Of a stretch of 64,000 bases of DNA, positions 268 to 43,050 are shown in pieces (the first letter of the stretch is position 1; each line of letters opens with the position of its first letter). The DNA is taken from NCBI RefSeq assembly GCF_020172665.1, contig NZ_CP083985.1:4016184-4080183 (forward strand), in the 5' to 3' direction. Source of the stretch: [Mycobacterium] zoologicum (GTDB lineage Bacteria; Actinomycetota; Actinomycetes; Mycobacteriales; Mycobacteriaceae). The notes below the pieces were generated by a model. The model was not told where the DNA came from and did not search any database. It worked only from the letters and a program-made list of their open reading frames with translations. The translations under genes and the position numbers were made by a program.

Positions 268-993
268 GTGTATTTTTTAGGGATCAATACCAGGTCAAAG
301 AGCCGTTACCCGGACGTCTGGATCATCGTTCCGGCCTTCGGCGAGGCGGCTGTCATCGGCGAGGTGATCGCCGGTATCCGGTCGGAGTTCGACAACGTCG
401 TCTGCGTGGACGACGGCAGCGCTGATGACACCGCCGCGATCGCCCGGCGCGCCGGCGCCTTTGTGGTGCGCCATCCGGTGAACCTCGGCCAGGGGGCAGC
501 GATTCAGACCGGGGTCGAGTTCGCCCGCCGCCGGCCCGGGGCCCGGCTGTTCGCCACCTTCGACGCCGACGGCCAGCACCGGGTGGCCGACGTGGTGCGG
601 ATGGTCGAGCGGCTCGACGACTCGGATCTGGATATCGTCATCGGCACGCGTTTCGCCGCCCCCGCGGCCGCCGCGGCCGTGCCACCGCTCAAGCGACTGG
701 TGCTGCGGACCGCGGTCTGGCTCAACCCACGGATCCGCCGGCTGGGGCTCACCGATGCGCACAACGGACTGCGGGTCTTCAACCGGCGGGTCGCCGACAG
801 TCTCGACCTCACCATGACCGGCATGAGCCACGCCGGAGAGTTCATCGCGCTGATCGCCGAAAACCATTGGCGGGTGGCCGAAGAACCCATCGAGGTGCTC
901 TACACCGACTACTCCAAGTCGAAGGGGCAGCCACTGCTCAACGGGGTCAACATCCTGTTCGACGGGATGCTGCGCAAGAGGATGTCACGATGA
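268..993 (+). CDS. Family 2 glycosyltransferase (Rv3631-like)
   Basis: This is a 241-residue GT2 enzyme, the same length as I recall for M. tuberculosis Rv3631. The GT-A fold signatures are visible: WIIVPAFGEAAVIGEV near the N-terminus, VCVDDGSADDT for nucleotide-sugar binding, and FDADGQH, whose DAD is the metal-binding DXD-type motif. No membrane segment is evident, so it is probably a cytosolic or peripheral transferase using a nucleotide- or polyprenyl-linked sugar. The start is GTG, followed by an unusually AT-rich stretch for this genome. The stop overlaps the next start as ATGA, so the two genes are translationally coupled. The acceptor is unknown. Confidence 0.9.
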   Translation: MYFLGINTRSKSRYPDVWIIVPAFGEAAVIGEVIAGIRSEFDNVVCVDDGSADDTAAIARRAGAFVVRHPVNLGQGAAIQTGVEFARRRPGARLFATFDADGQHRVADVVRMVERLDDSDLDIVIGTRFAAPAAAAAVPPLKRLVLRTAVWLNPRIRRLGLTDAHNGLRVFNRRVADSLDLTMTGMSHAGEFIALIAENHWRVAEEPIEVLYTDYSKSKGQPLLNGVNILFDGMLRKRMSR

Positions 994-1598: not shown

Positions 1599-4500
1599 TC
1601 AGCGCACCAACTCGAGTTTCGCGGACGACTTCTTCGCGGCGGCCTTTTTGGCCGGCGCCTTCTTGGCGGCCGTCTTCTTGGCCGCCGAAGCTTTCTTCAC
1701 CGGGGCCTTCTTGGCCACCGCGACTTTCTTCGCCGGGGCCTTCTTGGCCACCGCAACCTTCTGCACCGGGGCCTTCTTGGCGACGGCCTTCTTCGCCGGC
1801 GCCTTCTTGACAGGAGCCACCTCAGCTACGGCCTTCGCGACCTCTTTGGGGGCCGCCTCAATCTCCTTGGCCGGGGCCGAGAATCGGCTCGCCACGGCCA
1901 CCGCGGCGGTGGCCGCCGCGGCCGTGCCAACCGCCTGCGCCCAGCCGACCGGGCCGACCGGAGTGCAGCCCAGCAACTGGCTGACGCCGGGCGTGGAGAC
2001 CATCGCGGCGAACAGCACGAAGGACCCGGCCGCGGTCGCCAGCACCAGCGGCGCCCGCGAGTCGACCACGGTCTGACCGAGTTCGGTGGTCACCAGCGAG
2101 ATCAGTGCCACCGTCGACGCCCGCTGCGGGGTGCCGGTCACCGAGGCCATCGCCCAGGCGGCGGTGCCCGCCGCGCCGGTGACCCCGCCCCGGAACGCCA
2201 CGGCGCGCCACAGTTTGCGCTCGTCGAGTCCGGGCACCGCGTCACCGATCGGGCCGGCCGGCGTGCTCACCGCCACCGCGGTGGCCGGCAGCGCGTCGGT
2301 CAGGGTGTTCATCAGCAGCAGCTGGCGGGTGTTCAGCGGCGAGTTGCCGGTGATCGCGGTGCCGATGACGGAGAACATCACCTCACCGGCGTTGCCACCC
2401 AGCAGCCCGGAGATGGCCAGTTGCACACCGCGCCACAGCCTCCGGCCCTCGTCGATCGCGTCGACGAGCGCCCCGATCTTCCCGTCGGTCAGCACGACGT
2501 CGGCGGTGGCGTGCGCCGAGTCGCTGCCGTGCGCGACCACCCCGAGGCCCACGGTGGCGGCGCGAATCGCGGCGGCGTCGTTGGCACCGTCTCCGACCAT
2601 CGCCGAGACCCGGCCGGCGCGCTCCAGGGTCTGGACGATCTGCACCTTGTTCTCCGGCGACATCCGGGCGAAGATCACCCGTTCGCAGACCACCCGCTCT
2701 TGTTCCTTGCGGTTCAAGGCATTCCACTCCGAGCCGGTGATGACCTGCTCGGGGGCGACGTTCACGCCCATTTCGGCGGCGATCGCGGTGGCCGTGATCG
2801 GGTGGTCGCCGGTGATCATCCGGATGTCGACGCCGCGGGTGGCCAGATCGGCCAGCAGCTGCGGAGCGTCGGCCCGGGGCGTGTCGGCCAGGCCGAGGAA
2901 ACCGATCAGCGTCAGCCCGGCCGCGCTGACCTCCGTGAGGCGTTCGGAATCATCCCGCACGGCCCGCACCTGGGCGGCGGTCAGCTTGCCCTGCGCCACC
3001 GCGATCACCCGCAGCCCCTGGGCCGCCATCGCGTCCACCTGCTGTTCGACCTTGGCGCCGGCGTTCGTGCAAGCCCCCAGCACCACTTCCGGTGCGCCCT
3101 TGACCAGCAGCTCCGTTCCCAGCACCGACGCCGAGAAGGCCCGGCCGGAACGGAACGGCAGGTGCGCGTCCGGCTCGATCCAAGCCCTGGCGCCGGTTGC
3201 GGCCGCCGCACCCTCGACGATGGCCTGGTCGGTGGCGTGCGCGTGCGCGGCGCCGTCGGGAGCCGGGGCCGCCTGCGCGGCAGAACCGAGCACGTCGTCG
3301 TCGGAAAAGCCCGCCAGCGGGCGCACCGTGGTGACCCGCAGCCGGTTCTCGGACAGCGTTCCGGTCTTGTCGAAGCAGACCACGTCAACCCGGCCGAGCG
3401 CCTCCACCGACCGCGGGATTCGCACCAGCGCACCGGATTTCGTCAACCGCTGCGACGACGCGTGCTGGGCCAGGGTGGCCATCAGCGGCATGCCCTCCGG
3501 GACGGCGGCGATCGCGACCGCGATCGCGTTACCGAGCGCGACCCGCAGCCCGCCCTGGCGCAGCAGCCCGAGCGCACCGACCGCCACACCGCCGGCGGCG
3601 CTGTACGGGAAGGTCCGGTACATCAGCTGCGACAGGTGGTGCTGCAGGCCGACCTCGGCCAGCTCACCGGAGGCCAATTCGGAGGCCCGCCGGGCCTGGG
3701 TGTCGGCGCCCACGGCGGTCACCATCGCCAGCACCTTGCCGGCGATCACCGTGGTGCCCGCGTAGAGCATGGAGCTGCGTTCGGCCAGTTCGGCACCGGG
3801 AGTCGGGTCCAGCTGCTTGCCGACCGACAGCGATTCACCGGTCAGCGAGGACTCGTCGACCTCGACATCGGAGACCTCGAGGACCCGGGCGTCGGCGGGC
3901 ACCACCTCGTTGCTGTGCACCTCGATCAGGTCACCGGGCAGCAGTTGCTCGGCAGGGATTTCGTGATAGGTGGGGTTGTCCCCGCCGACCACCAGCACCC
4001 GGGCCGGTGGGGCCTGCTGGGCCAGCAGCGTGTTCAGCCGGCTCTCGGCCCGCAACCGCTGGTAGGCGGCCAGCATGGCGTTGCCGGTGAGCACCGTGCC
4101 CACCATCACCGCGTCGATCGGCGAACCCAGCATGGCGGTCGCCGCCGAGCACAGCGCCAGGATCGGCGTCATCGGGTCGGACAACTCCTCACGCACGGCG
4201 TGGAAGTACGGCCAGAACATGCCTTGGGATTCCGCGTCGACCGGGGCGCGTTCGGCCAGCGGTGTCACCGCGTCGGGAGCCAGCAGCTCGCGGGCCTGCT
4301 CGACCGTCATGGCGTGCCACTCGTAGGCCGGTGCCGGCTTCGGCGCGCGCGCCCGCAGCACCCGGCGGGCCAGCAGATATCCCGACAGCATGCCTGCGCC
4401 GGCACCGACGGTCACCGGGCCCGGTCCGCGGCTCGGGCCCGGCCCGACACCGGGGATGGTCGCCCGGACCCCGCGGACCAGCAGCAGCCCGGCGATGGAC

Positions 4501-6134
4501 GAGGCCCCGATCGAGATCGCGACTCCGCGCTCGCTGGCCGTCCGGGCGGCCGGCAGCGCCCGCAGCACCTGCCAGGCACCGGTCAGGTCGGTCAGCAGCA
4601 GATCGGCATAAAACGGCGGTGCGTCGTCTCCGCCGTCGGGCATGACACCCAGCCCCAGATCCGCCGACGCCAGGGCCTGCGCAGCCGAGGTCGACAGCAC
4701 CGCGACGGTGCGGCCGGCCCGCTGCAGATCGGTGACGGCCGCAGCCAGGGCTGCGTCGAGATCGTCGCCGGGTACCGGGCGGATGTCGTCGAAGCCGGGG
4801 CGCAGCTCGCCGAGGATCTCGGTGTCGACCGTGACCAGCTCCGCGCCGGAGGCACGCCCTTCGAGCACCACCGCCGAGGCCAGCGCGTGGTGCGCGGGCA
4901 GGATCAGCGCCTCCACCGGCACCTTGCGGGTCGACCCGCGGACGGTCATCCGAGGCACCCGGTGCCAGCCCGGTCGCAGTCCGGCCTTATCGAGCAGGTC
5001 CTGCGCGTTGCTCCAGGCCTTCGGCAACTCGTGTTCCCCGGCGCCGCGGATCTGCACCACTCGGCTTTGCGCACCGGTCAGCGCGCGCGGGTCGATGACC
5101 ACGGTGTCGATCTTGTCGAGGCGACGCAGGCTGCCCGGCCGCAGCGGCAGCACCCCGTGCTGATCCGCCAGCCCCTGGCCCAGGGCCGCGGCGAAGGATT
5201 CACAACTGGTGCGCACCGCCTTGGGCGACGCGGCCAGGATCGCGTTCGAGGTCATGTCCAGGTTGCGGGTGAGTCCGCCCACCACGCCGGCCCCGACGAC
5301 CTGCACCAGCGCGGTGCGCTTCAGGTGCCGCTCGGCCGGCCCGTCCGGGCGGGGAACCGGGCGCGCCGCGTCACACACCTCTGGGTGATCGGCGTATCGC
5401 GCCAGCTCCGGCTCGTAGCGGTTCCAGGCCAGCGCCCCGGCGCGGGTCTCGGACGCCTTCAGCCCCTCCACCATCATGTCCACCGCCAGGATCGCCGGGG
5501 ACATGGTGATGATGTGCGAGCCGAGCGAGGCCAGTGAGAGCACCGCTTCGGTGCGGGCCGGCCCGATCCGACTTTCCAGCGCGCTGCGGACCAGCGGCTG
5601 GTAGCGGGCCACCGACGCCGCGGCGTCGAAGATCTTCGGCGCGGCCGGCCAGCGCAGCACGCTGCCCGCGGTGGCGATCGCCAGGCCCACGGCGTTGGCG
5701 CCCACCATCGCGCCCTTGGTGGCCAGCAGCAGTCCGTCGCCCGGCAGGGCCGCCGGCACGTTCGCGGTCAGCTCGGCACCCTTTTCCACAGCTTCGACCG
5801 CCGCGCACAGGTCCGACAGCGCCGTCTGCTCGCCGACCTCGACCACCACCCGCGACAACGGGCGGTTCAGCCGCACCGAGGTGACGCCCGGCTGAGCCCG
5901 CAGGGCCTCCAGCACGGCGGTGCCGACGTCGTCGCCATCGGCCTCGTCCAGCCCGCGGACCTCGATCCAGGCCCGTCCGGCGCCGCGCCAGCTGCGCCGG
6001 CTGGTCAGATCCGAGCGTTCACCGGAGAGGATCTTGGCGCCCTCGCGCAGCGGGATGGCGGCAAGGTCCAGGCTCGCAGACGCCACTGCGCCGACGGCAT
6101 CCAGCCCGAGCCGGCCGAGTGAGAAAACGTCCAT
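1599..6134 (-). CDS. Very large cation-transporting P-type ATPase (CtpH/CtpI-like) with a degenerate second P-domain
   Basis: This 1511-residue protein is in the size range of mycobacterial CtpH and CtpI. The catalytic core is complete: TGES at residues 765-768 (actuator), DKTGT with the phosphorylated Asp at 922, and GDGANDA with Asp at 1182. An N-terminal ferredoxin-like region lacks CxxC. Upstream of the core, around residues 345-560, is a second P-domain-like stretch in which DKTGT is replaced by DPRAL (Asp 348), so that copy cannot be a normal phosphorylation site. The last 85 or so residues are a Lys/Ala/Pro-rich tail of PAKKA and VAKKA units resembling histone H1 or HupB tails. The ATG sits six bases from a GGAGG held in a hairpin downstream of an apparent Mn2+ riboswitch. 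Manganese or another divalent cation is therefore the likely substrate, with export as the inferred direction. CtpH versus CtpI cannot be decided here. Confidence 0.9.
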   Translation of the reverse strand: MDVFSLGRLGLDAVGAVASASLDLAAIPLREGAKILSGERSDLTSRRSWRGAGRAWIEVRGLDEADGDDVGTAVLEALRAQPGVTSVRLNRPLSRVVVEVGEQTALSDLCAAVEAVEKGAELTANVPAALPGDGLLLATKGAMVGANAVGLAIATAGSVLRWPAAPKIFDAAASVARYQPLVRSALESRIGPARTEAVLSLASLGSHIITMSPAILAVDMMVEGLKASETRAGALAWNRYEPELARYADHPEVCDAARPVPRPDGPAERHLKRTALVQVVGAGVVGGLTRNLDMTSNAILAASPKAVRTSCESFAAALGQGLADQHGVLPLRPGSLRRLDKIDTVVIDPRALTGAQSRVVQIRGAGEHELPKAWSNAQDLLDKAGLRPGWHRVPRMTVRGSTRKVPVEALILPAHHALASAVVLEGRASGAELVTVDTEILGELRPGFDDIRPVPGDDLDAALAAAVTDLQRAGRTVAVLSTSAAQALASADLGLGVMPDGGDDAPPFYADLLLTDLTGAWQVLRALPAARTASERGVAISIGASSIAGLLLVRGVRATIPGVGPGPSRGPGPVTVGAGAGMLSGYLLARRVLRARAPKPAPAYEWHAMTVEQARELLAPDAVTPLAERAPVDAESQGMFWPYFHAVREELSDPMTPILALCSAATAMLGSPIDAVMVGTVLTGNAMLAAYQRLRAESRLNTLLAQQAPPARVLVVGGDNPTYHEIPAEQLLPGDLIEVHSNEVVPADARVLEVSDVEVDESSLTGESLSVGKQLDPTPGAELAERSSMLYAGTTVIAGKVLAMVTAVGADTQARRASELASGELAEVGLQHHLSQLMYRTFPYSAAGGVAVGALGLLRQGGLRVALGNAIAVAIAAVPEGMPLMATLAQHASSQRLTKSGALVRIPRSVEALGRVDVVCFDKTGTLSENRLRVTTVRPLAGFSDDDVLGSAAQAAPAPDGAAHAHATDQAIVEGAAAATGARAWIEPDAHLPFRSGRAFSASVLGTELLVKGAPEVVLGACTNAGAKVEQQVDAMAAQGLRVIAVAQGKLTAAQVRAVRDDSERLTEVSAAGLTLIGFLGLADTPRADAPQLLADLATRGVDIRMITGDHPITATAIAAEMGVNVAPEQVITGSEWNALNRKEQERVVCERVIFARMSPENKVQIVQTLERAGRVSAMVGDGANDAAAIRAATVGLGVVAHGSDSAHATADVVLTDGKIGALVDAIDEGRRLWRGVQLAISGLLGGNAGEVMFSVIGTAITGNSPLNTRQLLLMNTLTDALPATAVAVSTPAGPIGDAVPGLDERKLWRAVAFRGGVTGAAGTAAWAMASVTGTPQRASTVALISLVTTELGQTVVDSRAPLVLATAAGSFVLFAAMVSTPGVSQLLGCTPVGPVGWAQAVGTAAAATAAVAVASRFSAPAKEIEAAPKEVAKAVAEVAPVKKAPAKKAVAKKAPVQKVAVAKKAPAKKVAVAKKAPVKKASAAKKTAAKKAPAKKAAAKKSSAKLELVR

Positions 6135-6140
6135 GGATTG

Positions 6141-6262
6141 CCTCCAGCGTCATAGCAGCGCTGGAGGTCTCTTCCGCCGAATGATCCGGCCCACAGCACC
6201 GGTCACCCGATAGACGGACGACGTGATGACGACACTGCGAATTGGGGAATACTCCCCTCCGA
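6141..6262 (-). promoter_or_regulatory. yybP-ykoY (Mn2+) riboswitch with ribosome-binding-site hairpin
   Basis: On the minus strand the ATPase leader opens with GGAGGGGAGTATTCC, continues with GTCGTCATCACG and GGGTGAC, and closes with GGAAGAGACCTCC. The opening GGAGG and closing CCTCC pair as P1. GGGGAGTA near the 5' end, a GTCATC segment and GAGACC at the 3' end are hallmarks of yybP-ykoY aptamers as I know them. Directly after the aptamer, CCTCCAGCG (minus-strand read of 6159-6167) can instead pair with CGCTGGAGG (6141-6149), which contains the Shine-Dalgarno GGAGG six bases before the ATG. CCTCC is thus shared: aptamer closure frees the SD, and its release masks it. That is a translational ON switch, as described for alx-type yybP-ykoY leaders. 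Confidence 0.85.
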
Positions 6263-6284
6263 CCGGCCAGTATGCCACAGAAGT

Positions 6285-9045
<2,761 letters not shown>

Positions 9046-9477: not shown

Positions 9478-9896
9478 TGCGCTCCGTCTCGGATGATACG
9501 CGCTCGCTCGTGCGCTATGCCGTTAACCTGCGCGAATGCTCGTTGAACGTCACCGACGGCATCCAGGCGCTGGATGCTCTCGGGCGGCAGCTCCTCGTTC
9601 TGGGGATGTAGGTGACAGTGGCCATGACAACAGTCGAAGCGCTCAACGGTTTCCCAACCACCCGAGCCGAGGACCTGGACATTGACGACGAAATCGACAA
9701 GGCGCCCGCCATCCCGCCAGATGATGAACTGGACCCGAATGGCGCTGACGTCGTCGTAAGCCGTTTCCCACTGCCGTCGAAAGCAATCTCCGCGCGGTGG
9801 CGGCCGGTACGTCCCGTGCTTGGAATCGAGTTGTCGTTCAAGGTCGCGGCGCGCTCGTTCCACATGTTTTCGCCGCTGCTGCCCTCGGCGAACCAT
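9474..9896 (-). CDS. Hypothetical protein, possibly DUF7718-like, first gene of a two-gene cassette
   Basis: This 140-residue soluble protein has an Arg-rich N-terminus (RRGQQRRKHVERARRDLERQ) followed by RVQFIIWRDGGRLVDFVVNV and a Cys/His cluster, CCHGHCHLH. The sequence resembles small hypothetical proteins grouped as DUF7718, from memory and not certain. The Cys/His cluster could bind a metal. The stop overlaps the next start as ATGA. Its 5' end lies 53 bp from the NRPS-like gene on the opposite strand, so the gap must hold both promoters. This also argues against any longer N-terminus for that neighbour. Confidence 0.65.
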   Translation of the reverse strand: MVRRGQQRRKHVERARRDLERQLDSKHGTYRPPPRGDCFRRQWETAYDDVSAIRVQFIIWRDGGRLVDFVVNVQVLGSGGWETVERFDCCHGHCHLHPQNEELPPESIQRLDAVGDVQRAFAQVNGIAHERARIIRDGAQ

Positions 9897-9949
9897 GCAC
9901 GAACCCTAGTCACTGCGCTACCGGTCCGTGCTCGGTACGTTCTACAGTC

Positions 9950-12900
9950 GTGCCCGCACTGCAAGTCCCCAAGCAGTTTCTGCGCGCCTCGGCTGCGCCG
10001 GCGCCCCGCACCCTGATCGACATCCTGCGAGAGACCGCCGAGCGCTTCCCCGAGGCCTCCGCTATCGACGACGGCCATGTGGTGCTGACCTACGCCGAGC
10101 TGGTCACCGACATCTCCGACAGCGTCGGGTGGCTGGCCGAGCGCGGTATCGGACGCGGTGACCGGGTCGGCATCCGGATGCCCTCGGGCAGTTATTCGCT
10201 CTACACCGCGATTCTGGCGGTGCTGGCCGCCGGTGCGGCCTATGTGCCCGTCGACGCCGACGATCCCGACGAGCGCGCCGAGCTGGTGTTCGGCGAGGCA
10301 CAGGTCGCCGGGGTGATCACCGAGAAGGGCCTGGCCCGCGGCCCCGGTACGCCCGGCGGTATGCCGGCATCGTCGCCGACAGCCGACGACGACGCCTGGA
10401 TCATCTTCACCTCGGGATCGACCGGCACCCCCAAGGGCGTGGCGATCACCCACCGCAACGCGGCGGCCTTCGTCGACGCCGAGGCCCGGTTGTTCTGCCA
10501 GGATCAGCCGATCGGGCCGGGCGACCGGGTGCTGGCCGGACTGTCGGTGGCGTTCGACGCGTCGTGTGAGGAGATGTGGCTGGCGTGGCGCTACGGCGCC
10601 TGCCTGGTGCCGGCCCCGCGGTCGCTGGTGCGCAGCGGCATGGACCTGGGTCCGTGGCTGGTGGCGCGCGACGTGACCGTGGTGTCGACCGTGCCGACGC
10701 TGGCCGCGATGTGGCCGGCCGAGGCGCTGGAGGCGGTGCGGCTGCTGATCTTCGGCGGCGAGGCCTGCCCGCCGGAGCTGGCGGCCCGGCTGGCGACCGA
10801 CGGCCGCGAGGTCTGGAACACCTACGGGCCCACCGAGGCCACGGTGGTGGCCTGCGCCGCGCCGCTGGACGGCTCCGACGCGGTGCGGATCGGCCTGCCG
10901 CTGGCGGGCTGGGATCTGGCGGTGATCGGCGCCGACGGGGCGCCGGTGGACGTCGGTGAAGTCGGCGAGCTGGTGATCGGCGGGGTGGGGCTGGGCCGCT
11001 ATCTCGACGACGCCCGGGACGCCGAGAAGTACGCACCGCTGCCCGTCCTGGACTGGCCTCGGGCCTACCGCAGCGGGGATCTGGTCCGGTTGGAGACCGA
11101 CGGTCTGGTGTTCTGCGGCCGGGCCGACGACCAGGTCAAGGTCGGCGGCCGGCGCATCGAGCTGGGTGAGGTGGACACCGCGCTGATGGCGCTGCCCGGG
11201 GTCAGCGGGGGCGCCGCCGCGGTGCGGGAAAGCGCCGGCGGCACACCGCTGTTGGTCGGGTATCTGGCCAGCACCGACCCGGACTTCGACCTGGTCGCTG
11301 CACGCGAACTGCTGTGCCGGCAACTGCCGGCCGCGCTGGTTCCGCGGCTGGTGCTGGTCGGTGAGCTGCCCACCCGGACCTCAGGCAAGGTCGACCGTGA
11401 CGCACTGCCGTGGCCGGTGCCCGGTGCCGACGAGTCCTCGGCCCTGGACGGCGTCGACGGCACCCTGGGCTGGCTGGCCGGGTTGTGGCGCGACGTGCTG
11501 GGCACCCCGGTGGAGGACGAGCGGGCCGACTTCTTCGCCCTGGGCGGTGGATCGCTGGCGGCCGCGCAGCTGGTGGCCGCGGTGCGCCGGCGCTACCCGA
11601 AGCTCACCGTCGCGCAGCTCTACGACCGGCCGCGGCTCGGTTCGCTGGCCGGGTTCCTCGAGGACATGGGGGCAGTCGATCCGGCGGACGGCACCGAGGC
11701 ACCGCCGGTAGCGCTCACGCCCCGGCTGACCCAGGCCGCTCAAGTGCTGCTGTCGGTGCCGTTGGCCACCCTGGCCGGCCTGCAATGGGTGGCCTGGCTG
11801 GCGCTGATCAACAACCTGACGTCGATGTGGCACCCGCTGCCCTGGCAGATGCGGCTGAACTGGTGGTGGGTGCTCGCCGCGTTCGTGCTGTTCGTCACCC
11901 CGCTGGGCCGGATGGGCATCGCCGCGCTCGGGGCCCGAGTGCTGCTGGTCGGTCTACAGCCCGGCACCTACCGGCGCGGCGGGCCCGAGCATCTGCGGAT
12001 CTGGATCGCCGAGCGGCTGGCGGCGGCCAGCGGCGCCGAAAACCTCGCCGGCGCACCGTGGTTGGTGTATTACGCCAGGGCGCTCGGCAACACGATCGGC
12101 AAGGGCGTCGACCTGCACTCCGCCCCGCCGGTGACCGGGATGCTGACGCTGGGGCACCGCTGCTCGATCGAGCCGGAGGTCGACCTGACCGGGTACTGGG
12201 TGGACGGCGAGGACTTCCACGTCGGCCCCATCACGATCGGCAACGACGCCACCATCGGCGCTCGCACCACGTTGCTGCCGGGCGCCTCGGTCGGCAAGGA
12301 CGCCGACGTCGGCCCCGGTTCCGGGGTGGTCTGGGAGGTGCGCAAGGGCCAGTACTGGACGGGCTCGCCGGCGGTGAAATCCGGCAAGGCACGCCATCCA
12401 TGGCCCGATCATCGGCCACCGGCCCGCCCGGCGTGGGTGGCGGTCTACGGGCTGACGTCGCTGCTGCTGGGCGGCCTGCCACTGCTGGCACTGGGCGCCG
12501 GGCTGGCCGTGCTGGGCTGGTCGGTGCGCGAGGCCACCACCCTCGGTGCGGCGATCCGCCCGGTGGCGGTGTGGACACCGGTGGCCGCACTGACCGCGCT
12601 GGGCTGCTATGCCGCGCTGACGATCATCGGGGTGCGGCTGCTGTCGATCGGGCTGACCGAGGGCCATCACCCGGTGCGCAGCCGGGTGGGCTGGCAGCTG
12701 TGGGCCACCGAACGGCTGATGGACGCCGCCCGCGATTACCTGTTTCCGTTGTACGCCAGCCTGATCACCCCGTGGTGGCTGCGACTGCTGGGGGCGAAGG
12801 TCGGCGAGGGCACCGAGATCTCCACCGCGTTGTTGATCCCGAAGTTCACCGTGATCGCCGACGGCGCGTTCCTGGCCGACGACACCATGGTCGCCTCCTA

Positions 12901-13822
12901 TGAGCTGGGCGGCGGCTGGATTCACGTCGCACCGGCCACCATCGGCAAGCGCGCTTTCCTGGGCAACTCCGGGATCACCCGGCCGGGCCGGCGGGTACCC
13001 GACAAGGCTCTGGTGGCCGTGCTGTCGACCGCGCCGCACAAGGCCAAGAACGGCTCGTCGTGGCTGGGCAGCCCGCCGGTTCGGCTGCGCCGCAAGGCCG
13101 CCGACTCCGATGCCGAGCGCACCTTCGCCCCACCGGTGCGACTCAAGCTGATGCGCGCCGTCATGGAGACCTTCCGGCTGATCCCGGTCGTGGCGACCTT
13201 TGCGATCGGCGTCGCCGTACTCGGGACATTACATTGGGGTGCAATGCATTACGGCTACAAGTGGGCAGCCCTGGGCAGCGGCGTGGTGCTGCTGACCGCC
13301 GGGGCGGTTGCCGGCGGTGCCGCGGTGGTGGCGAAATGGCTTTTGGTGGGCCGGATTCAGGCGACCGAGCATCCGCTGTGGTCGTCGTTCGTGTGGCGCA
13401 ATGAGGTGTCCGACACCTTCGTCGAGACCGTGGCCGCCCCGTGGTTCGCCCGCGCCGCCACCGGTACCCCGGTGATCAACCTGTGGCTGCGGGCGCTGGG
13501 CGCCGATATCGGGCGAGGCGTGTGGTGTGAGACCTACTGGCTACCCGAAGCCGACCTGGTGACGCTGGGCCCCGGCGCCACCGTCAACCGCGGCTGCGTG
13601 GTGCAGACCCACCTGTTCCACGACCGGATCATGCAGCTCGACACCGTCACGCTGGAAGCCGGCGCCACCCTGGGGCCGCACTGTGTGGCACTGCCGGCCG
13701 CACGCCTGGGCGCGGGCACCAGCGTCGGCCCCGCTTCACTGGTGATGCGCGGCGACCAGGTGCCGCCCGCAACACGCTGGCAGGGCAACCCGATCGCACC
13801 GGCGGCCGGAGCAACACGGTGA
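9950..13822 (+). CDS. Pls/PosA-type NRPS-like protein: adenylation, carrier and hexapeptide acyltransferase domains
   Basis: The product has about 1290 residues. An adenylation domain fills residues 20-485, with FTSGSTGTPKG near 154, NTYGPTE near 290, YRSGDL, and the GKVDR core near 479. A carrier domain follows with the phosphopantetheine Ser at about 535 (LGGGSL). The remaining half has several membrane segments interleaved with left-handed beta-helix stretches (such as ITIGNDATIGARTTLLPGAS), as in hexapeptide acyltransferases. This is the layout of the Pls/PosA family, which activates an amino acid and transfers it to a membrane-linked acceptor; the substrate is unknown. The frame is open upstream to 9797 but would overlap the divergent gene, so the GTG is preferred. 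The stop overlaps the aminopeptidase start (GTGA). Confidence 0.85.
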   Translation: MPALQVPKQFLRASAAPAPRTLIDILRETAERFPEASAIDDGHVVLTYAELVTDISDSVGWLAERGIGRGDRVGIRMPSGSYSLYTAILAVLAAGAAYVPVDADDPDERAELVFGEAQVAGVITEKGLARGPGTPGGMPASSPTADDDAWIIFTSGSTGTPKGVAITHRNAAAFVDAEARLFCQDQPIGPGDRVLAGLSVAFDASCEEMWLAWRYGACLVPAPRSLVRSGMDLGPWLVARDVTVVSTVPTLAAMWPAEALEAVRLLIFGGEACPPELAARLATDGREVWNTYGPTEATVVACAAPLDGSDAVRIGLPLAGWDLAVIGADGAPVDVGEVGELVIGGVGLGRYLDDARDAEKYAPLPVLDWPRAYRSGDLVRLETDGLVFCGRADDQVKVGGRRIELGEVDTALMALPGVSGGAAAVRESAGGTPLLVGYLASTDPDFDLVAARELLCRQLPAALVPRLVLVGELPTRTSGKVDRDALPWPVPGADESSALDGVDGTLGWLAGLWRDVLGTPVEDERADFFALGGGSLAAAQLVAAVRRRYPKLTVAQLYDRPRLGSLAGFLEDMGAVDPADGTEAPPVALTPRLTQAAQVLLSVPLATLAGLQWVAWLALINNLTSMWHPLPWQMRLNWWWVLAAFVLFVTPLGRMGIAALGARVLLVGLQPGTYRRGGPEHLRIWIAERLAAASGAENLAGAPWLVYYARALGNTIGKGVDLHSAPPVTGMLTLGHRCSIEPEVDLTGYWVDGEDFHVGPITIGNDATIGARTTLLPGASVGKDADVGPGSGVVWEVRKGQYWTGSPAVKSGKARHPWPDHRPPARPAWVAVYGLTSLLLGGLPLLALGAGLAVLGWSVREATTLGAAIRPVAVWTPVAALTALGCYAALTIIGVRLLSIGLTEGHHPVRSRVGWQLWATERLMDAARDYLFPLYASLITPWWLRLLGAKVGEGTEISTALLIPKFTVIADGAFLADDTMVASYELGGGWIHVAPATIGKRAFLGNSGITRPGRRVPDKALVAVLSTAPHKAKNGSSWLGSPPVRLRRKAADSDAERTFAPPVRLKLMRAVMETFRLIPVVATFAIGVAVLGTLHWGAMHYGYKWAALGSGVVLLTAGAVAGGAAVVAKWLLVGRIQATEHPLWSSFVWRNEVSDTFVETVAAPWFARAATGTPVINLWLRALGADIGRGVWCETYWLPEADLVTLGPGATVNRGCVVQTHLFHDRIMQLDTVTLEAGATLGPHCVALPAARLGAGTSVGPASLVMRGDQVPPATRWQGNPIAPAAGATR

Positions 13823-41533: not shown

Positions 41534-41608
41534 AAAAAGGACGACCCCCGCCAGGGGGGGAGGAGGCGGAGGTCGTCGTGCATCAACCCCGGGGGGTCGG
41601 GCCGATAC
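41534..41608 (-). ncRNA. 6C small RNA (B11 / ncRv13660c-type)
   Basis: The minus strand forms two hairpins with C-rich loops. Hairpin 1 is ATCGGCCC with GGGGTTGAT around GACCCCCC; hairpin 2 is GACGACC-CCGCC with GGCGGGGGTCGTC around a loop containing seven C, followed by CTTTTT. A -10-like TATGCT lies at 41615-41620. Two hairpins with six or more loop C define the actinobacterial 6C RNA, and its M. tuberculosis representative lies between Rv3660c and Rv3661, exactly as here. Mycobacterial 6C RNA is reported to base-pair through its C-rich loops with G-rich target mRNAs. The 5' end is approximate. Confidence 0.87.
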
Positions 41609-41753
41609 ACCCTCAGCATAAGCCGAGTGATGCCACTATACACACGAGAGGGCGGTCTGGCGCAAGTGTCCACACCAAATGGACTCGGTTCGTTGCGCCT
41701 GTCCTGAAGTGCACTTTCCCGGATATTGCCGGGACGAATGGCGGCGGCGGACC

Positions 41754-42724: not shown

Positions 42725-43028
42725 GGAAGCACGGAAGCCCGGTAAGGCCAGGGTCGACTCGGAAGAGAAGGATCGATCTCCCGAACCACGCTTCCCAGTG
42801 CGGATAGCGGTACCCACGCGGAGCCATAGCCGCGAAGATGGCAGAAGTGTTGCGGGCCTGCGTAATTGCGGAACGTGTTCGGATTTGTCAACCTCTTGGG
42901 TGGGGTTGCTCCCGAAGAACACCGCAGGAGCGCCGAGGCCACCCACGCAACCCACGTTGGACGCTTGGTAACCGTGTACCGCACTAGCGGGCGGCGAGCC
43001 GATTCATTCGGAACGCCGCCCGCTTCGT
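42725..43028 (+). ncRNA. Ms1 / MTS2823 small RNA
   Basis: A 418 bp gap without coding frames lies between the Rv3661-like and Rv3662c-like genes, where M. tuberculosis encodes MTS2823. A promoter-like CACGTAGTACAAAGG is followed by about 300 bases rich in short complementary segments (for example AGAAGGATCGATCTCCCG and GCGGATAGCGG) and ending in a strong terminator. The predicted length is close to the 304 nt reported for M. smegmatis Ms1. Ms1 binds RNA polymerase core in stationary phase, replacing 6S RNA. Identification is by position, length and architecture; ends are approximate. Confidence 0.82.
42987..43028 (+). terminator. Terminator of Ms1
   Basis: GCGGGCGGCG pairs perfectly with CGCCGCCCGC across a 17-base loop, followed by TTCGTCTGT. 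The stop of the convergent gene lies 22 bases beyond. Confidence 0.88.
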
Positions 43029-43050
43029 CTGTCCGGATCGGCCTGTCGAC

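Follow-up and report, generated by a model that had tools for sequence, protein, structure and literature searches.

The window analysed here, a 64,000-nucleotide (nt) stretch of the [Mycobacterium] zoologicum genome (contig NZ_CP083985.1, positions 4,016,184 to 4,080,183), encodes on its minus strand a giant P-type ATPase of the CtpH type. The gene is preceded by a 150-nt leader, located between an epimerase-type gene whose open reading frame (ORF) ends at 6285 and the ATPase start codon ATG at 6134. We consider it probable that this leader is a yybP-ykoY-type translational ON switch for Mn2+ that ctpH captured from a terC gene, and that CtpH lowers Mn2+ and possibly also Ca2+. A conserved Mn2+ riboswitch before a CtpH pump would provide a direct and testable hypothesis on the substrate of the pump. 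No report of such a riboswitch before ctpH was found in the open-access literature, which leaves out most subscription papers.

Anatomy, class and pairing of the ctpH leader

Read 5' to 3' on the minus strand, the leader consists of GGAGG (P1), GGAGUA, UUCC, a P3 stem with GUCGUCAUCACG and ACCGG, a P4 stem, GGAA, GAGA and CCUCC (P1'). A first-pass annotation of the window had proposed a Mn2+ riboswitch at this site based on three motifs, and all three are present on the minus strand (GGAGGGGAGTA from 6260, GTCGTCATCAC in the middle and GAGACCTCC at 6171-6163). The P1 pairing that it described (GGAGG 6260-6256 with CCTCC 6167-6163) was likewise found, as was its alternative 9-bp hairpin (CCTCCAGCG 6167-6159 with CGCTGGAGG 6149-6141), which holds the Shine-Dalgarno (SD) sequence GGAGG. 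The features of the leader and its gene are as follows.

6161..6265, minus strand: Mn2+ riboswitch-type (yybP-ykoY) aptamer, matched by covariance model R1 over positions 1-108 of 108 (75.3 bits, E 5.4e-15)
6256..6260, minus strand: P1 5' arm GGAGG, read from the sequence
6246..6249, minus strand: P1.2 5' arm UUCC, partner GGAA (UCCC/GGGA, UUCC/GGAA and CCCC/GGGG variants among leaders)
6172..6175, minus strand: P1.2 3' arm GGAA (same variants)
6166..6171, minus strand: GAGACC on the aptamer 3' side, read from the window sequence and also present in the R1 matches of Escherichia coli alx and mntP
6159..6167, minus strand: switching strand CCUCCAGCG, whose first five bases form the P1 3' arm, or which as a whole forms the 5' arm of the SD hairpin
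6141..6149, minus strand: SD hairpin 3' arm CGCUGGAGG with the SD sequence GGAGG (6145-6141), read from the sequence
6269..6279, minus strand: TGTGGCATACT, directly upstream of the aptamer, seen by eye in 14 of 14 ctpH loci; a possible -10 region
1599..6134, minus strand: giant P-type ATPase of CtpH type, 1511 amino acids (aa), ATG start, assigned from domains, motifs and PEGM

The SD sequence lies 6 nt before the ATG and inside the 9-bp hairpin. The conserved blocks that we take to be loops L1 (GGGGAGUA) and L3 (CGUCA...ACG with CCGG) are present together with the 3' GAGACC, and the same blocks appear in E. coli alx when it is aligned by R1. The window contains the pattern GGGGAGTA-CGTCA-GAGACC a single time, and none of 100 dinucleotide shuffles has it; the same numbers were obtained for the SD hairpin pattern. 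A scan of 6080-6420 gave no match to a sigma70-type consensus, and a scan of the leader region for intrinsic terminators found none. Weak matches of other Rfam families at the site (mir-139, RtT and others) were discarded, being far under their gathering scores.

Model R1 was built from 35 TerC leaders of other genera, none of them from the genus of the window. In 13 sources (197,712 bases) it returned 12 matches with E values of up to 1, of which 11 were leaders and one a non-leader (E 0.35). With filters off, it was also applied to two regions of E. coli K-12, where it found the alx leader at 51.1 bits (E 2.7e-10) and the mntP leader at 24.6 bits (E 3.7e-4), the next match having E 3.1. One covariance model therefore finds the window leader and both E. 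coli members of yybP-ykoY (RF00080). Both are reported as Mn2+-activated riboswitches, that of mntP acting by making the ribosome-binding site accessible (PMC9603457, PMC11647493). The window element differs from them in its downstream gene and represents an actinobacterial form that RF00080 did not report in the loci tested.

Alignment A1 comprises the 35 leaders, hand-chosen for diversity from pattern-selected loci, so that GGGGAGTA, CGTCA and GAGACC cannot vary in it; for the same reason the constancy of GAGACC in relatives is uninformative. Of the 29 pairs in the consensus fold, 20 show changes on both sides. Pairing is kept in 92.2% of the cells, as compared with 36-51% when the arms are slid, and the covariation score of 0.504 (0.188 when shuffled) was reached by none of 500 shuffles. 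The P1, P1.2, P3 and P4 architecture is thus backed by covariation, and when P1 is enforced the window folds to the same helices. P1 itself is nearly invariant in this set (one of four pairs varies), partly since the selecting pattern fixed its letters. The first-pass annotation had named covariation of both P1 and the SD hairpin as a test; the hairpin does covary, with few events, and P1 hardly varies in the set.

The CCUCC on the aptamer 3' side can pair in P1 or in the SD hairpin, but not in both at once. For the hairpin, 58 of 80 prepared leaders were aligned, 19 of which form the ctpH group (L173 placed there by its leader alone). In this alignment 96.3% of the cells of the 7-bp SD hairpin are paired; with the arms slid, the value is 58.8% at most. 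One of its pairs is AU in 20 rows, namely the 19 of the ctpH group and L062, and CG in one. A hairpin of at least 7 bp over the SD sequence is found in 143 of 158 distinct leaders, compared with a mean of 50.5 and a maximum of 66 in 20 shuffles, in a set that includes second-type leaders and possibly chance matches and with a control that shuffled letters, not dinucleotides. The translational ON architecture proposed in the first pass is thus conserved as a choice between two mutually exclusive pairings, with the direction of switching suggested by it.

According to the mechanism we propose, in the absence of Mn2+ CCUCCAGCG on the aptamer 3' side would pair with CGCUGGAGG and the SD sequence would be hidden. 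At high Mn2+ the aptamer would close P1 (GGAGG/CCUCC), occupying CCUCC and releasing the SD sequence, so that CtpH would be translated; the pump would then lower cytosolic Mn2+, possibly Ca2+ as well. By analogy with mntP, Rho-dependent loss of the untranslated ctpH message is possible. A mycobacterial metal-ion switch with a translational platform has precedent in the Mbox (Mg2+) riboswitches of Mycobacterium tuberculosis (PMC12810186). These belong to another RNA class, however, and the main text of that report contains neither yybP nor ctp.

Downstream genes and gene order

The pattern search gave matches in 120 of 301 family genomes and 22 of 31 genera, a few of which lie within genes and look fortuitous; as a control, the reversed pattern was non-zero in 4 of the 301 rows (G051, G111, G281 and G299). 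R1 matches 179 of 248 genomes of the window's genus, and 45 of 198 phylum genomes with that genus included. By tblastn, terC was held at 35 of 35 R1 training loci. The best 30 loci of the genus comprised 27 with terC and three with a CtpH-like ATPase (L158, L166 and L170), and at L170 a small gene comes first, ahead of the ATPase. Among 18 phylum loci (L222-L239), 11 had terC and five an ordinary cation P-type ATPase; of the remaining two, L239 lies before a Na/Ca exchanger family protein and L222 ends near a contig end. A Pfam search with nine downstream proteins of these loci was in agreement (three TerC, five P-type ATPases and one Na/Ca exchanger). The exchanger family protein at L239 (1617-2945, plus strand), behind the same aptamer in an actinobacterial genome, may by its position be a further class of Mn2+ transporter. 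Genes for GDT1-type proteins, assigned by Pfam at L072 and by similarity elsewhere, follow a second riboswitch form (GGGGAGTAGCCCC); GDT1 and UPF0016 are one family. TerC, UPF0016/MneA and P-type ATPases have been named for Mn efflux or detoxification (PMC13274385).

In a survey from 2013, yybP-ykoY is given as present in over 75% of the taxonomic groups, among them two actinobacterial groups (PMC3766115); mycobacterial terC leaders may therefore already be listed there. By comparison with the 179 of 248 genus genomes matched by R1, RF00080 was reported in two of 151 family genomes, none over its cut-off, in a different genome sample and with stricter filters in both; it also gave matches in three of 14 control genomes. 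These counts suggest that Mn2+ regulation in mycobacteria is probably under-annotated. A comparable leader exists in Corynebacterium glutamicum, which we take to be an actinobacterium related to the window organism. It was assigned to yybP-ykoY by RF00080 and has an observed transcript, but it precedes terC (cg2157) and not ctpH (PMC3890552).

A protein scan for CtpH identified 14 loci, 13 titled Mycolicibacter and one titled 'Mycobacterium sp.', and the leader with its SD hairpin was present in all 14. The comparison of ctpH leaders across mycobacteria suggested in the first pass thus came out in favour of a kept aptamer and hairpin. The gene order around these leaders leads to the question of how ctpH came under the switch. 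At L133, L134, L135 and L137, terC adjoins the riboswitch and is divergent from a gene of 1311-1318 aa resembling the window gene 9797-13822, which is AMP-binding by Pfam. In the window genome, G285 and G187, ctpH adjoins the riboswitch and terC lies beyond a block of a glycosyltransferase (window 268-993) and a gene that by eye looks flippase-like. The terC leaders of L129, L130 and L136 keep CGACCGGAGG, which in relatives makes up the SD half of the terC switch; R1 gave no match for an aptamer at these three Mycolicibacter terC genes up to E 1. Two further genomes, G490 (L213) and G362 (L214), have the order riboswitch, small gene, ctpH and terC on one strand, which resembles an intermediate stage in the transfer of a riboswitch from one target gene to another. 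The small gene encodes an Ala/Gly-rich protein (143 aa in G490) with no Pfam match.

From these arrangements we infer as the simplest order that ctpH was inserted between the aptamer and terC and the glycosyltransferase block afterwards. The switch would originally have governed the neighbouring terC and would have been taken over by ctpH on its entry.

Substrate of CtpH and competing explanations

The window ATPase, of the CtpH/FUPA24 type, has the domains E1-E2 ATPase, HAD and Cation_ATPase_C and a long N-terminal part. Its motifs include DKTGTL at 922, TGES at 765, GDGAND and PEGMP at 879, with PEGM in transmembrane helix (TM) 4. Alignment to SERCA placed E880, N1248, E1251, N1276, T1279 and D1280 in TM4-TM6, in line with SERCA residues whose role is known. 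The PEGM variant has been described for CtpH (PMC3573892). Of the CtpH/CtpI type named in the first pass, the CtpH likeness therefore stood and the CtpI likeness did not; the name CtpH rests on the PEGM motif and the size. A Lys/Ala-rich, histone-like tail was noted at the ATPase C terminus (1599-1934, minus strand; 24% Lys in the last 111 residues). According to a 2023 review, CtpI and CtpH are uncharacterised, with substrate unknown, and maybe form their own family (PMC10654040). Because of the riboswitch class and the cation-site residues, CtpH-type pumps probably export Mn2+ and perhaps also Ca2+.

A P-type ATPase behind a yybP-ykoY riboswitch has been described before. The mgtA gene of Streptococcus pneumoniae encodes such a metal pump (CaxP), which is used against Mn2+ excess, and its riboswitch is described as Mn/Ca2+-sensing (PMC11434433). 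The window protein differs from it in its 1511 aa, its long N-terminal part and the isolated position of CtpH in the P-type tree (PMC10654040, PMC3573892).

Several results weigh against a Mn2+ ON switch serving a Mn2+ exporter. RF00080 gave no match in the window at its gathering score, did not appear when 216 bases at the site were scanned for matches as weak as E 10 and gave none for the ctpH leader in the scan of its own genome at E 0.001; scans of the related loci tested were negative as well. The first-pass annotation had called a missing RF00080 match refuting. In the E. coli K-12 regions, however, RF00080 scored mntP at 41.6 bits against a threshold of 45. Since the threshold excludes the established members mntP and alx, and the gathering score is a detection convention rather than a defining feature of the class, the miss says little against the window. 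The yybP-ykoY class given in the first pass is borne out by the independent R1 match, by the ability of R1 to find alx and mntP, by strong covariation and by terC as the usual downstream gene; RNA class and anatomy of the leader are well supported. The remaining adverse points concern the platform and the pump. In the SD hairpin 24 double changes were counted, and 19 of these represent one change common to the ctpH group, so that the events are few. Plain secondary-structure folding strongly prefers the OFF state (-56.9 compared with -44.2 kcal/mol with P1 enforced, a gap of 12.7 kcal/mol), and the P1-enforced ensemble frees the SD sequence in part, with 9-58% unpaired per base. The calculation fits an OFF state without metal, and the ON state must then depend on binding of Mn2+ or on early formation of P1 while the RNA is being transcribed. 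Finally, one publication links CtpH to Ca2+ (PMC9180918). Both that link and the review (PMC10654040) would be compatible with a Mn2+/Ca2+ pump.

The same RNA class and ON logic could also serve a CtpH that is mainly a Ca2+ pump, giving Ca2+ or mixed Mn2+/Ca2+ export. The closest solved structures to CtpH are Ca2+ ATPases (that of Listeria, followed by SERCA and SPCA1), and among NCBIfam models it matches the PMR1-type Ca2+ model best, at 281 bits and so far under the cut-off of 798. The Mn/Ca2+-sensing description of the S. pneumoniae mgtA riboswitch and the Na/Ca exchanger behind one phylum site point in the same direction. The element is mostly found before terC, however, a family tied to Mn (PMC13274385), and we regard a mainly Ca2+-pumping CtpH as unlikely.

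The stability of the OFF hairpin in folding and the position of ctpH between switch and terC would also be expected of a vestige, an aptamer left over when ctpH entered and since deprived of switching. Yet all 14 ctpH loci retain both the aptamer and the hairpin while the hairpin loop varies, and the ctpH hairpin differs from the terC hairpin by a matching change on both sides, which makes loss of switching quite improbable. Least probable of all, we think, is that the SD hairpin alone matters, working without a ligand as an RNA thermometer or as a constitutive damper. Its perfect 9 bp over the SD sequence would suit such a role, but the conserved aptamer 5' of the hairpin, which covaries across genera, would then be left unexplained.

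A second riboswitch in the same genome

R1 marked a second site in the window genome at C1:1224375-1224494 (46.5 bits; L132 10376-10495, minus strand), before a second giant P-type ATPase (P0001). Over 1301 aligned positions P0001 shares 53% identity with CtpH; it has NASG at the cation site, as compared with NAGE in CtpH, and lacks the C-terminal tail. A second-type leader precedes a P0001-type gene in seven other genomes (L202-L206, L208 and L209, the last two cut by a stretch or contig end). The genome also contains two TerC matches and a GDT1 gene, and at E 0.001 R1 marks only the two ATPase leaders; MntP gave no match in this genome at E 0.001.

Taken together with the gene orders described above, this site makes us lean slightly towards a wider reading. 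In Mycolicibacter, two separate Mn2+ riboswitches would each drive a giant ATPase of the isolated CtpH/CtpI branch, one of them having been taken over from terC when ctpH was inserted between the aptamer and the SD sequence. The pumps of this branch would then export Mn2+ (or Mn2+/Ca2+), and actinobacteria would have a large set of Mn2+ riboswitches that the current Rfam model hardly detects.

In the second riboswitch, a 36-aa upstream ORF begins inside the loop of an SD-like hairpin, and the SD sequence of the ATPase lies further downstream in another possible hairpin (by eye); judged from this layout, the platform may be two-step. An origin of this riboswitch from GDT1 was considered and rejected: three second-ATPase loci and seven GDT1-type loci had no common proteins at E 1e-12, and their L3 regions differ by eye. 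As regards the public model, Rfam 15 RF00080 misses the E. coli alx riboswitch (L172 6372-6503) at E 0.01, which is a gap in that model. Elsewhere in the window, an Ms1 small RNA (42731-43031, plus strand) and a 6C RNA (41536-41611, minus strand) were over their Rfam thresholds.
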